A stretch of DNA of 21,686 nucleotides from positions 1 through 21,686 of IMG/VR virus record IMGVR_UViG_3300043540_000044; one strand, written 5' to 3'. Source of the stretch: a virus. Under the pieces are notes generated by a model, which saw nothing but the letters and a program-made list of their open reading frames with translations, searched no databases and was not told the origin of the DNA. Numbering within the stretch: position 1 is the stretch's first letter; each line of letters starts with the position of its first letter. This document shows, piece by piece, positions 1,516-9,646 of this stretch. The translations under genes and the position numbers were made by a program.

Positions 1516-2373
1516 GTGTTCGGAAACCAGCCTTCTTCTCCTGGTGGGTTCAGCGGCAACAAACGCTTTCCCACCGGGAACAACGAATTTCCACAGGTCG
1601 ACCATCAAACGATTGTCGATATGGTTCGGCAGAACGCCGTGGCGGTTCGCTATTGGAAGGCGATTCAGTGCCCATGCTACACCGAACAGACTGGCCAGCC
1701 GCAGATCAACTGCGCGACCTGTCGCGGCCTAGGGTGGGCATATTCCGATCACGAGACGGACACTATTTACTTGAGGGCAATGGTCCATAGCCGTCGCTCT
1801 CAGCGCATCAACGAGGCTGGCGGGTTGATGACAAAAGGGTATTCGTCAATGACTTTCTTGCCAGGAGTAATTCCAGGTGACGGGGATTTGGTTCAAGTAT
1901 GCAAAGACCGGGAGATTATCAATTCCGAATCCATAACTGCTGGATTTACCTTGAATGACGGATCTACTGGAGAAACGCTACGCATGAGGGATGTTGTGTG
2001 CGTAGAAAATGTATCGATGCTCAATCAAGTAACAAAGCGCATCGTAAGAATTGACGAAAGTCTTTGGGAGTACGATCCGGCCCAAAGGCGTATAGTTTTT
2101 CACCCAGAGCTGCCGGCTGGTACTCGTTACAGTGTAAGATATTTAGCAGTACCGGAGTACATTCTTCGCGGCGACACATCGAAACCAGTTCTTCGCGTCG
2201 CTCACGATGATGCCCTCCAGGAACCAGCGCGGATTACGAAGGACATTGTTTATCCATTCAACGTCCAAGCAGTTCGACTGGATCGAGCTATGCTTCAGAG
2301 GCTTCGAGGACAGCTCGACACCCAGACGCAAAGCACGTTCAATAACTCGAAGGGCAGGGGGCCTTTTCTGTGA
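1516..2373 (+). CDS. Neck/head-closure candidate with N-terminal CxC-x11-CxxC zinc motif
   Basis: A protein of 285 residues starting at GTG 1516, 12 bases after the previous stop, with a weak TTGGGG ribosome site. Residues 52-69 hold Cys52, Cys54, Cys66 and Cys69 (CPC...CATC) followed by RGLGW, a zinc-knuckle pattern resembling the CxxCxGxG of DnaJ. Similar Cys clusters followed by G-x-G occur, as I recall, in head-completion proteins of many tailed phages. The remainder is mostly beta, with a segment around residues 150-215 reading like a beta-barrel adaptor. Its position between a connector-like gene and the tail genes supports a neck role. Metal binding is inferred from the motif only. The stop overlaps the next start (GTGA), so the two are translationally coupled. 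Confidence 0.45.
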   Translation: MFGNQPSSPGGFSGNKRFPTGNNEFPQVDHQTIVDMVRQNAVAVRYWKAIQCPCYTEQTGQPQINCATCRGLGWAYSDHETDTIYLRAMVHSRRSQRINEAGGLMTKGYSSMTFLPGVIPGDGDLVQVCKDREIINSESITAGFTLNDGSTGETLRMRDVVCVENVSMLNQVTKRIVRIDESLWEYDPAQRRIVFHPELPAGTRYSVRYLAVPEYILRGDTSKPVLRVAHDDALQEPARITKDIVYPFNVQAVRLDRAMLQRLRGQLDTQTQSTFNNSKGRGPFL

Positions 2374-3005
2374 GAGAGCTAGACCGTCAGATAGACAGAT
2401 GCCGAAAGGCTCTAGCTTTTCTTGGAGCCTCAAAAAAGAGCCCAGGCAACGCGATTGTTCACGACACCAGCTCTGGAAAATCAATGTATTCCAGAAGTCC
2501 AAAGGCCACTGGTCAAGCTGCTAAATTTAGCATGGGTAAAACTGGCAGCGGAAAACCGATTTCAAGTTTTTCGCATCAAGAAGCCGGCCACAGTTGGGGA
2601 CCAAAGGATCATCTTGATGCCTATCGCGCCCACACAAACCATGCCGCCAGTCTCTCAGAAAATGAATCACATCCAAAATTGATCGAGCATCACCAGCAGG
2701 CCGCGCAATACCACTATCAGCAGGCGTTTCCTCAATCGAGTATTAAGAAGTCAAATCCCCATCCTCATAAGGCACTTGGGAAAACTAGATCAGGTAAAAC
2801 AGTTTATCACCACGTTCACCATCACAAGCACAAACATTTCAACAAGCAAGATCACGCGGATGCCGCTCACCTTCACTTCAAGAGAAACAATCGACTACTC
2901 AATCGGTTGAAGCACGCGAAGGGAAAAATGCGCGAAGCGATCCAGAGGCTCATAAAAAAACACGGACTGGGAGTGCAGGTCCACGGACACGCATACCATT
3001 CATAG
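2370..3005 (+). CDS. His-rich basic protein with internal duplication (GKTxSGK ... DHxDA), unknown function
   Basis: A protein of 211 residues starting at GTG 2370 and overlapping the previous stop by four bases. It contains 27 histidines (about 13%) and many Lys/Arg. Two copies of a module are offset by exactly 81 residues: GKTGSGKP at 56-63 with DHLDA at 80-84 and His88, then GKTRSGKT at 137-144 with DHADA at 161-165 and His169. A third partial SGK box lies at 35-40 (SGKSMY). After copy 1 come helices with regularly spaced His (about 81-118); after copy 2 a His/Lys run (147-156) and a basic helix (170-200). I do not know the function. Metal binding or nucleic-acid binding is plausible from composition. 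The second SGK box matches a Walker A pattern, but nothing else supports an ATPase. Confidence 0.7.
   Translation: MRELDRQIDRCRKALAFLGASKKSPGNAIVHDTSSGKSMYSRSPKATGQAAKFSMGKTGSGKPISSFSHQEAGHSWGPKDHLDAYRAHTNHAASLSENESHPKLIEHHQQAAQYHYQQAFPQSSIKKSNPHPHKALGKTRSGKTVYHHVHHHKHKHFNKQDHADAAHLHFKRNNRLLNRLKHAKGKMREAIQRLIKKHGLGVQVHGHAYHS
2535..2885 (+). repeat. Internal protein-level duplication in the His-rich gene
   Basis: Copy 1 is encoded by about 2535-2642 (residues 56-91) and copy 2 by about 2778-2885 (residues 137-172). The spacing from the first Gly of GKTxSGK to the Asp of DHxDA is 24 residues in both. DNA identity is low outside the motifs, so the duplication is old. Confidence 0.6.
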
Positions 3006-4000: not shown

Positions 4001-4489
4001 ATGAGCCGATTGGAGAAGGTTATTGACTCAGTACGCGCGCGCTCCGGGATGGTTGAAAAATCCGAACCGGCAAATCGTCCGCGTCTGAGCAAAGCAATTT
4101 CGACGGCTCGTGAGCGCCTCAGTGATCGTTATCAAGGTGACGATCTTGAAAAGGGTGTTCACGATGCCATGTACCACCATGCGTTGCACGCGCGGGCCGC
4201 AAATTCGGCGCGCTATAAGGGAGAGAAGTCGACTCCCGAGCATGATAAAAAGTGCAGTGAAATCGGTAAGCAGCATGAATTCATGTTTCTCCGCCACGCG
4301 CTTGAGAACGCCAAACACAAAGCGAAGTACGCTGGCGATATGAAGTGGAAAATGCAGAAGTCGATGGATTACTACGACAGTGAGGCACCATACGACGACA
4401 GCGATCCCGATTACAAGAAGGCGTGCGACCACTATAAGAATGGCGGTGGTTACGTTGGGCACAAGCACGATAAATTCAAGGAGGATTGA
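4001..4489 (+). CDS. His-rich helical protein, unknown function
   Basis: A protein of 162 residues with an AGAGGT ribosome site. The N-terminal 45 residues are basic and helical. Residues 50-110 form a probable helical hairpin with His at regular intervals (VHDAMYHHALHARAANSA, then a turn, then HDKKCSEIGKQHEFMFLRHA and AKHKAKY). The C-terminal part is acidic, with Tyr and Asp (YYDSEAPYDDSDPDYKK), and ends GHKHDKFKED; 11 histidines in all. The hairpin of H-x2-A-x3-H type resembles the helices after each DHxDA box in the 2370 gene, so the two may be distant relatives or share a partner. Function unknown; metal or nucleic-acid binding is a guess from composition. Its stop shares one base with the next ATG (TGATG). 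Confidence 0.6.
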   Translation: MSRLEKVIDSVRARSGMVEKSEPANRPRLSKAISTARERLSDRYQGDDLEKGVHDAMYHHALHARAANSARYKGEKSTPEHDKKCSEIGKQHEFMFLRHALENAKHKAKYAGDMKWKMQKSMDYYDSEAPYDDSDPDYKKACDHYKNGGGYVGHKHDKFKED

Positions 4490-4716
4490 TGTCCAGACTT
4501 GAAGAACTTCGTCAGCAGGCGCTCCAGTGGTCAGATGAAACTCGCAAGATCCAAAAGGGGTATGAGGGTTTCAAAAAACTAGGGAACGAGCTTTCCCAAC
4601 GCAAGGGGAAAAAGAAGGTCAAGAACGTGAAGGCACTTGAGGCTTGGATTGGACGCCGAAAATACGGCAAAGCCAAATTCCAAGCGGCGGCGGCCCACGG
4701 AAAGAAGATGGGTTGA
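4489..4716 (+). CDS. Small basic protein (75 aa), unknown function
   Basis: I chose ATG 4489 rather than TTG 4486. ATG shares its A with the upstream TGA, and AAGGAGG at 4478-4484 sits 4 bases before it. The protein is strongly basic, with a run around KLGNELSQRKGKKKVKN. Its C-terminal half, KALEAWIGRRKYGKAKFQAA, resembles a short motif (AWIGRkKYGk-x-F) that I recall at the ends of various uncultured-phage proteins; that recollection is unverified. It starts MSRLE like the upstream protein, but the similarity ends there. Nucleic-acid binding is plausible from charge only. Confidence 0.5.
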   Translation: MSRLEELRQQALQWSDETRKIQKGYEGFKKLGNELSQRKGKKKVKNVKALEAWIGRRKYGKAKFQAAAAHGKKMG

Positions 4717-7501: not shown

Positions 7502-9646
7502 ATGGGCAGAACGGCTGTATTTAACGGCGTCGAACTGGTGATCCCAGATGCCTACTCCGCACTCGACGTTTCTCGTTTGTTGACGCCCACCTCCGGTGGA
7601 GTCGGCATCGTCGCGTTGGTCGGAGAAGCGGACGGTGGAAAGCCTGGCGTAAACATTTTTCCTGGCGGCACGTCGCCGGCGGTCGTCAAGAAGTCGCTTC
7701 GTAGCGGTCCACTTGCCGATGCTTGCCGATTGGCACTTCGATCAGGAACAGATCCGCTGGTTCAGGCGGGTGCATCGACCATTGTGGCGATGAAGACAAA
7801 CAATTCAACTCCGTCAATACTCGGAGTGGGCGGCGTAACGAACGGCGCTCAAGAAAAATATGATGCAGATTTTGGCGTGCTCACCGGCGCAAGTTTCGAT
7901 GTCGTTGGAACCGGATTGAGTTTCAAATTGGCCGGCGGAGTTGACCAGATTTGGTTCAAGGTCACTGACGGTACGAATACTCAGACGGCCCCGGTCGGAG
8001 CCGGAATCACCCAGCATGAAGTCGACATTCTGACTGCCGACACCGCTTCGCAAATCGCAGCGAAAGCTCAAGCGATCATTGCCGGTATCTCGGGACTTTC
8101 GGCGACCGTCGCGAGCGCGATCATTCACGTCACCCACACGGCCCTCGCGGCTCTGTCGGATGCTGCCGATGTGGATGCCAGCGTCACGATCACCGTCACC
8201 CAGCAGGGAGTTGACCCAGATCCTGGAGCGTTCACTCTTACAACAAAACAGTACGGCGTGTTTACCGCGCTTTACACAGCCGAAATCGCGACCATCGGCG
8301 TTCAGAAATTCGTCACCGTTCGCGACGACCAGGGCGTGCCGGAAACTTCTCCGGCTCTTGGCGTGACCTCGTACTTGAATCTCAAGTACACGGGCAACGG
8401 CTCCGCCGCCGCTATGCAGTTGAAGTGGGTCTCGGGTTTCCTGAGACTTCAAGTGACGCTCACTGGTGAGTCGGACGGTTCGGCAGATATCGACCTCGAT
8501 GTGACCACGCTCACGGTCGGAAACATCGCTCAGATCGTGGCCGGATTAACCGGATACGAGGCGACAGTCGATCCTTCGCGCCAGCAGTTCTTGGCCTCTG
8601 ACCTTGATTTGTACCTGACCGATCAGGACATCAAGACTCCGGTTTCTGGCTTCGACTTCAAAGCGAGCATCAAGGAACTTATCAACTGGGGCACTTCGCA
8701 ATCTCAGTTGGTCAGCGTCACTCGCGGCTCGATGAACCAAGCCGACACCGTGCCCGGCACTCTGGCCCCGACTCAGTTCGCCGGCGGCACGCGCGGCACG
8801 ACCTCCAACAGCAATTTCCAGGACGATCTGAACACGCTCCTCGCTTTACGAATCAACATCATGGTTCCGCTGGTTTCCAGCGACAACCAAGACGGTTCGA
8901 CTATGTTGGTGAGCACGATCAATGCGCAGGTCAAGGACCATGTGCAGAATCGTTCGGGCATCTTGGGACGCTCGGAGTGCCAAGCGTATGTGTCCATCCA
9001 GGGCAACAAAGATGCATTCAAAACCGAGTGCGGCGTGCTCAATAGCCGATGGGTCGCTTGCACCAGCCAGAAAATCACTGACCTCGACATCGCCGGAAAC
9101 CAAAAGGTGTTCGACGAATGGGCATTCGCGGTCGTTTGCGCTCAGACTCAGGCTGGCTCTCCCATCGGCACGGATCTCACGTACCGCGCGCTGCCTATCC
9201 TTGGCATCACGCAGGATGTGTCTTGGAACCCAGTTGAGGATGGCCCCGAGCTTATCAAGGCCGGCGCTCTCATCGCCGGACCGGATGATTCCAATGTGAA
9301 CCGGATCATCGCCGGCTATACAACTTGGCTGGCAGACGACAACAACGCCAACATCTACATTGAAACCGTGGAGTCGTTGGCGATCTTCGCGTTCAACCAC
9401 CGCAAGTACATGAAGCAGCGGTTCTTGGGACAGTCGGCGTTCACTCGCGACGACATCCTCAAGGGCATCGAGGCATCGGTGGATGTGGAGACGAACACCA
9501 CCAAGTCGATCAAAGGTTTCGACTTGAAACAGGTGACGATCATCTCCGCAAGCGCGGGCCGGCTGGAGTACGAAGTGCCGGTCATTCCGTTTGAGGGCAT
9601 TAAATTCGTGTTGCCGACAGTTGTGGCAATCCGAGAAACTGCATAA
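7502..9646 (+). CDS. Contractile tail sheath protein
   Basis: Forms the sheath whose contraction drives the tube into the cell. A protein of 714 residues, longer than many phage sheaths (roughly 350-660). Recognisable parts: an N-terminal opening (GVGIVALVGEADGGKPGVNI, about 33-52), a region reading PLADACRLALRSGTDPLVQAG leading to a strand (TIVAMKT), and the C-terminal sheath domain (about 600-714) with 'NRIIAGYTTWL', 'ESLAIFAFNHRKYMKQRFLG' and a final strand pair ending in 'IPFEGIKFVLPTVVAI'. It is followed by a tube gene, which fixes the assignment. Residues about 128-236 look like an inserted extra domain (see the separate entry). The large antisense frames opposite it are composition shadows. 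Confidence 0.92.
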   Translation: MGRTAVFNGVELVIPDAYSALDVSRLLTPTSGGVGIVALVGEADGGKPGVNIFPGGTSPAVVKKSLRSGPLADACRLALRSGTDPLVQAGASTIVAMKTNNSTPSILGVGGVTNGAQEKYDADFGVLTGASFDVVGTGLSFKLAGGVDQIWFKVTDGTNTQTAPVGAGITQHEVDILTADTASQIAAKAQAIIAGISGLSATVASAIIHVTHTALAALSDAADVDASVTITVTQQGVDPDPGAFTLTTKQYGVFTALYTAEIATIGVQKFVTVRDDQGVPETSPALGVTSYLNLKYTGNGSAAAMQLKWVSGFLRLQVTLTGESDGSADIDLDVTTLTVGNIAQIVAGLTGYEATVDPSRQQFLASDLDLYLTDQDIKTPVSGFDFKASIKELINWGTSQSQLVSVTRGSMNQADTVPGTLAPTQFAGGTRGTTSNSNFQDDLNTLLALRINIMVPLVSSDNQDGSTMLVSTINAQVKDHVQNRSGILGRSECQAYVSIQGNKDAFKTECGVLNSRWVACTSQKITDLDIAGNQKVFDEWAFAVVCAQTQAGSPIGTDLTYRALPILGITQDVSWNPVEDGPELIKAGALIAGPDDSNVNRIIAGYTTWLADDNNANIYIETVESLAIFAFNHRKYMKQRFLGQSAFTRDDILKGIEASVDVETNTTKSIKGFDLKQVTIISASAGRLEYEVPVIPFEGIKFVLPTVVAIRETA
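7883..8209 (+). other. Inserted domain within the sheath (residues about 128-236)
   Basis: This segment separates TIVAMKTNN from FTLTTKQYG, which in a simpler sheath would be close together. It has the order strand (SFDVVGTGLSFKLAGG), 'QIWFKVTDGTN', 'HEVDILTADTASQIAAKAQAI', 'LSATVASAIIHVTH', 'VTITVTQQG'. This order recurs, as I remember it, as an independent add-on domain in other phage virion proteins. An exposed surface domain on the tail is the likely consequence. Boundaries are approximate. Confidence 0.5.

Follow-up and report, generated by a model that had tools for sequence, protein, structure and literature searches.

A roughly 80-residue module that matches no family in the libraries searched, present in two diverged copies in a histidine-rich phage protein, is a candidate docking domain for head assembly or packaging

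The selection of proteins for the phage head is known in detail for only a few models. In phage T4, the capsid-targeting sequence (CTS) is a short N-terminal peptide that is cut off by the prohead protease, and in phage lambda (C/Nu3) the protease gene has a C-terminal part that also serves as the scaffold. Among the head maturation proteases that have a C-terminal tail (phrog_1028) are SPO1 gp3.2 and the protease of Mx1. The common CTS element takes diverse T4 internal proteins (IPI, IPII, IPIII and Alt) into the precursor head, and lysines of these proteins contact packaged DNA (PMC3012670). Phage polyvalent proteins are described, in the passages of Iyer et al. 2017 (PMC5512222) that were searched, as large, multidomain, encoded in the head-gene region and predicted to be packaged; the same passages do not describe the module reported here, for which the Pfam library used has no model. 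The setting of head-region modules on diverse proteins is already known.

The window (the whole stretch of DNA that was analysed, 21,686 nucleotides of IMG/VR record IMGVR_UViG_3300043540_000044) contains an open reading frame on the + strand (2370..3005) that starts with GTG and encodes a protein of 211 residues, 27 of them histidine. Its upstream partner on the same strand is a gene for a virion structural protein of the head and packaging family phrog_1004 (1516..2373; E=1.8e-15). The two genes overlap by 4 nucleotides, the GTG of the second lying inside the TGA stop of the first (GTGA). An N-terminal helix (residues 2-19; 2373..2426) is predicted in the AlphaFold model, and two copies of the module follow, each predicted to consist of a beta-hairpin and an alpha-hairpin (all features are on the + strand). 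Copy 1 (residues 51-123; 2520..2738) has a first box, GKTGSGK, at the predicted turn of the beta-hairpin (residues 56-62; 2535..2555), a second box, DHLDAYRAH, at the start of helix 1 (residues 80-88; 2607..2633; including H81 and H88), and a helix 2 with the conserved H108 and H115 (residues 102-119; 2673..2726; from the AlphaFold model and conservation). Copy 2 (residues 132-211; 2763..3002) has the corresponding GKTRSGK (residues 137-143; 2778..2798), DHADAAHLH (residues 161-169; 2850..2876; including H162 and H169) and helix 2 (residues 185-210; 2922..2999) with the conserved H198 and H205. No second recognised domain was found in the protein with PHROG, Pfam or NCBIfam models.

An earlier note, made from the sequence alone, had called this an exact 81-residue duplication. 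Its observations of detail were accurate: the histidine count is right, the pairs G56/137, D80/161, H81/162, D83/164, A84/165 and H88/169 all match at an offset of 81, and the paired boxes are 24 residues apart in each copy. The word exact does not hold, as an offset of 81 brings only 19 identical residues among 130 (15%) into register, a count that is equalled at offset 32. The local alignment of one half with the other nevertheless scored 69, as against 32.8 +/- 5.9 for composition-preserving shuffles, none of which scored as high (0/2000). The pairing of the boxes (GxTxSGK, then 17 residues, then DHxDAxxxH) is real and significant, and the two pairs represent two copies of a domain. No DNA repeat was found within the gene, and a recent or exact duplication is ruled out by this absence, by the 15% identity and by the scores of the copies across phages.

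These scores come from a sister phage (IMGVR_UViG_3300017963_000225, 91.6 kb) that was found with a degenerate pattern for both boxes. Its module gene (in locus L003) has the same position as that of the window, directly after a phrog_1004 orthologue that is 51% identical, with the identical overlap, and encodes a protein of 285 residues with three units (a, b and c). Copy 1 of the window aligned with unit b at a score of 138 and copy 2 with unit c at 151, compared with 69 between copies 1 and 2. Because both window copies resemble their sister-phage counterparts more than they resemble each other, the duplication predates the split of the two phages. Residues 33-40 of the window protein (TSSGKSMY; 2466..2489) align with sister unit a, the first of the three, and may be the remnant of a third first box; the segment is weak evidence by itself.

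The earlier note had also supposed that this is a recurring phage module, and relatives with both boxes at equal spacing were indeed found in many phages. A five-unit alignment retrieved three more carriers, and the enlarged alignment two more. A pattern for the second box only (F...DHx[DE]A...H...A) matched 50 viral DNA stretches, and T.SGK was present in frame within 50 residues upstream in 21 of 47 new matches (0.11 expected from shuffles), lying in 19 of the 21 cases 12-17 residues before the Phe (mode 13). Since the first box was left out of this pattern, its linkage to the second is an independent test of the module. An iterated hidden Markov model (HMM) collected 56 units from 34 IMG/VR contigs, 33 besides the window, a set that may include a few low-complexity stretches rich in K, A and H and in which the boxes are altered in three cases (L073, L098 and L099); the HMM showed the unit of a further locus (L002) to be real. 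A typical unit reads (K)GEGSRGGKIIGHTKSGKPIYE...H..FTxxDHxDAAxLHxxxA...HHxxAxxH, of which the window copies are diverged members: both have GxTxSGK followed by DHx[D/E]AxxxH with a K-to-F spacing of 13 (12-17 in the family), Trp replacing Phe in copy 1, and both have HxxxxxxH in the second helix (H108/H115 and H198/H205). When whole records were searched, units outside the profile were matched at E values down to ~1e-21, and some phages had several units: ten in five open frames (G611), five in four (G620) and six in three (G615). The first box also occurs without the second (GEGSRGGKxIGHTKSGKPIY) in a few frames (G618:C1:15256-15348, G611:C1:53154-53240, and G608), and the beta-hairpin may be a separable piece of the module.

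No known family could be assigned, as the earlier note had said. No model of Pfam, NCBIfam or PHROG covers the module, no significant match to it was found in these libraries, and searching PDB chains by sequence gave nothing. Searches of 50,697 isolated-phage records by tblastn with representative units and full proteins gave no credible match, filtered tblastn being weak for such sequences. A match to Elizabethkingia phage TCUEAP3 (E=1) was rejected, as the protein lacks the boxes and a profile search of the record was empty, and weak matches to phrog_2807 and phrog_21559 were discarded when they were not repeated with typical family members. A profile search of 595 bacterial genomes of GTDB found no unit in 299 from the phylum of G008 or in 296 from the phylum of G002; the same profile does match in viral records, partly by construction. 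In genome contigs, a pattern with GGC-coded Gly matched 28 stretches, of which the in-frame ones that were read were chance matches, including the P-loop of an ABC transporter, and a pattern anchored on GCGTC had no match. The libraries searched contain no description of the module, and at the sensitivity of tblastn isolated phages have no close relative of it. Its IMG/VR carriers are uncultivated contigs.

The carriers are of several kinds. In seven phages the module is in the C-terminal tail of the head maturation protease: one protease matches phrog_1028 at E=2e-44 (L093) and another at E=3e-4 (L047), a third has 39% identity (E=3e-30) to the prohead protease annotated in Myxococcus phage Mx1 (L046), and four were identified by similarity (L059, L070, L091 and L094). 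An early module profile gave no match in the record of Mx1, to which the closest annotated protease belongs. Other carriers are stand-alone proteins of about 100 residues with little beyond the module (L048, L087, L097 and L086:1421-1819). A NUDIX domain accompanies the module in a protein of 1250 residues (L086) and DUF5662 in another carrier (L080), and in some long proteins (L074, L096, L107 and L112) no further domain was recognised. Larger head-region carriers contain from one to several units, and polyproteins are among the carriers. In a set of 108 proteins from the neighbourhood, the PHROG families seen most often were major head protein (8), phrog_1004 (6), head maturation protease (3) and several portal families, and in the window and its sister a phrog_1004 gene adjoins the module gene. 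Such surroundings are also expected for structural proteins that stay unpackaged.

A modular docking domain for head assembly or packaging, with a probability of roughly 0.5, is the best explanation of a single module that is found on the tail of a protease, on an enzyme-bearing protein, and alone or repeated in small proteins, in viral contigs only among the sequences searched here, and usually near portal, protease or capsid genes. The module would act as an exchangeable element for protein-protein docking, by which its carrier reaches the growing head, where the scaffold core, the inner capsid surface or the portal region would be the target and the carrier would be built in or packaged. 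The protease of the sister phage itself (L044 9579-10307) is free of the module, and phages with the module in their protease have that single unit only, as judged by whole-record search, so that a receptor common to every phage does not follow. A more ambitious version, in which a metal-templated docking domain is a general plug for loading the prohead with proteins, the maturation protease among them, and is widespread in uncultivated phages, fused in one to several copies to chosen cargo, is considered unlikely.

The mode of action may be like that of the T4 internal-protein CTS, but by means of a folded domain. As in T4, one element is common to unrelated proteins of the head region; unlike the short N-terminal CTS peptide, the module has about 80 residues, is apparently folded, is internal or C-terminal, is often in tandem and is present also on the protease itself, and targeting would be its role by analogy. 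By description it might be said to work like the CTS, to which system it does not belong. Two carriers (NUDIX and DUF5662) fit the polyvalent proteins as they are described in the passages of PMC5512222 searched, whereas the window protein, having no second domain, lacks the two or more effector or enzyme domains of that class. It also differs from the proteases with C-terminal tails in not being one: no match to phrog_1028 was found in it, the protease domain occurring in other carriers. If the module is a portable folded mark on head-region proteins, head cargo, including uncharacterised effectors, could be found from sequence alone, and foreign proteins could be loaded into capsids with the module as their tag; even if not, a missing domain family is added that covers long unannotated stretches of phage protein.

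The fold of the module was predicted with AlphaFold2. For copy 1, with 38 aligned units, the model (pLDDT 84, pTM 0.73) has strands at positions 11-14 and 20-22 and helices at 35-55 and 59-76 of the unit (adding 43 gives the residue number in copy 1). The model of the full protein (15 rows, pLDDT 77.5, pTM 0.42), in which the placement of the halves relative to each other is unreliable, has strands 54-57 and 63-65 and helices 78-97 and 102-119 in the first half, and strands 135-138 and 144-146 and helices 159-180 and 185-210 in the second. The halves are thus predicted to fold alike, with equal elements in equal order at offset 81, as a beta-hairpin with GxTxSGK in its turn followed by an antiparallel alpha-hairpin. 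Foldseek comparison of the model with PDB and BFVD gave no match at E<=0.001, from which newness of the fold does not follow.

Conservation among the 38 units is concentrated in the first box (G13 92%, T15 97%, S17 97%, G18 100%, K19 95%), in the following segment (F33 95%, D37 97%, H38 100%, D/E40 97%, A41 100%, H45 95%) and in helix 2 (H65 89%, H72 100%). The helix faces carry histidine and alanine, as DHx[D/E]AxxxH in helix 1 and HxxxxxxH in helix 2; the two histidines of each helix are spaced seven apart, with intervening alanine in helix 1, and so lie on one face. The geometry of an antiparallel hairpin would make the four conserved histidines face one another, and a core of His and Ala instead of Leu is unusual, making a metal site plausible from the sequence. 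Of the two roles suggested in the earlier note, metal binding is thus the plausible one. In a docking domain, the four histidines and D/E may together coordinate a metal ion, which would stabilise the alpha-hairpin. It is less probable that metal binding or storage is itself the function, with the alpha-hairpins holding Zn, Cu, Ni or Fe by H81, H88, H108 and H115 (and D80/D83) and the repeats loading the particle with metal. The abundance of histidine (27/211), the 89-100% conservation of the four at i,i+7 with an invariant small Ala between, and fold resemblances to metal-binding helical bundles (sulerythrin, CopM and a designed heavy-metal peptide) speak for such a unit. These resemblances are weak (Z below 5, a level that the search tool rates as common for helical hairpins), fold matches at Z of 5.5 or less being uninformative, the total histidine content is variable among units (mean 10%), and recurrence on proteases and other proteins fits a tag better than storage.

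Also doubtful, to much the same degree, is a scaffold-like or structural block inside the prohead (a core, a scaffold component or a spacer), of which the protease tails and the stand-alone forms would be pieces. Helical hairpins are suited to scaffolds, carrier genes adjoin portal, protease and capsid genes, and the presence of the module in protease tails recalls lambda C/Nu3, where the C-terminal extension serves assembly, a likeness of description with no sequence relation seen. However, the module gene of the window and sister phage is on the connector side, between phrog_1004 and the tail genes and not between protease and capsid, and the NUDIX and DUF5662 carriers are not scaffolds.

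The nucleic-acid-facing role that the earlier note had also suggested gained no direct support, and an internal protein whose Lys/His-rich hairpins bind DNA or RNA and neutralise packaged DNA is very improbable: the composition is basic and histidine-rich, and lysines of the T4 internal proteins touch packaged DNA (PMC3012670), but most of the conserved residues (G, T, S, G, K, F, D, H, A, H) are non-basic, some of them acidic, and there was no library match to a DNA-binding family. A Walker A or P-loop nucleotide-binding segment, suggested by GKTRSGKT in copy 2, was rejected, since GxxxxGK[ST] fits copy 2 alone (copy 1 has GKTGSGKP, and Pro is the commonest residue at that position across the family, 47%) and the model places the segment at the turn of a short beta-hairpin, with helices after it, and not in a P-loop alpha/beta fold.

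Several other features of the two phages were noted. The sister phage (G001) encodes a head-region protein of 1638 residues (L044:11534-16450, -) with a UvrD-like helicase (Pfam E=1e-19), a HELGH metallopeptidase-like segment and a kinase-like start, in which a segment [MV]RF[LF][FL]KA[KR]xxPxGTxxxxADGxYxKVxxxxW is repeated. Small genes adjoining it open in a similar way (MKFFFK/MRFLLK), and the module protein of the sister phage starts with VKFFLRKSSLG; this type of segment looks like a second, different recurring tag of the head region. Between its capsid and connector genes, the sister phage also encodes a fibre-like protein of 1164 residues (L044:2127-5621, -) with many repeats of the form ARAANLDNLDATVSSRA. 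The window encodes a second His/Lys-rich helical protein (MYHHALHARAANSARY...; 4001-4489), which matches phrog_1341 weakly (E=0.013) and whose homologue in the sister phage (L043:17293-17784) has the corresponding position. The proteins of window positions 4486-4716 and of L065:1-1542 have a common C-terminal motif, IGR[RK]KYGKxxFxxxxAxG[KR], and are otherwise unrelated. The tail sheath protein has 714 residues in the window (7502-9646) and 586 in the sister phage (L043:13126-14886), which suggests inserted domains in that of the window.
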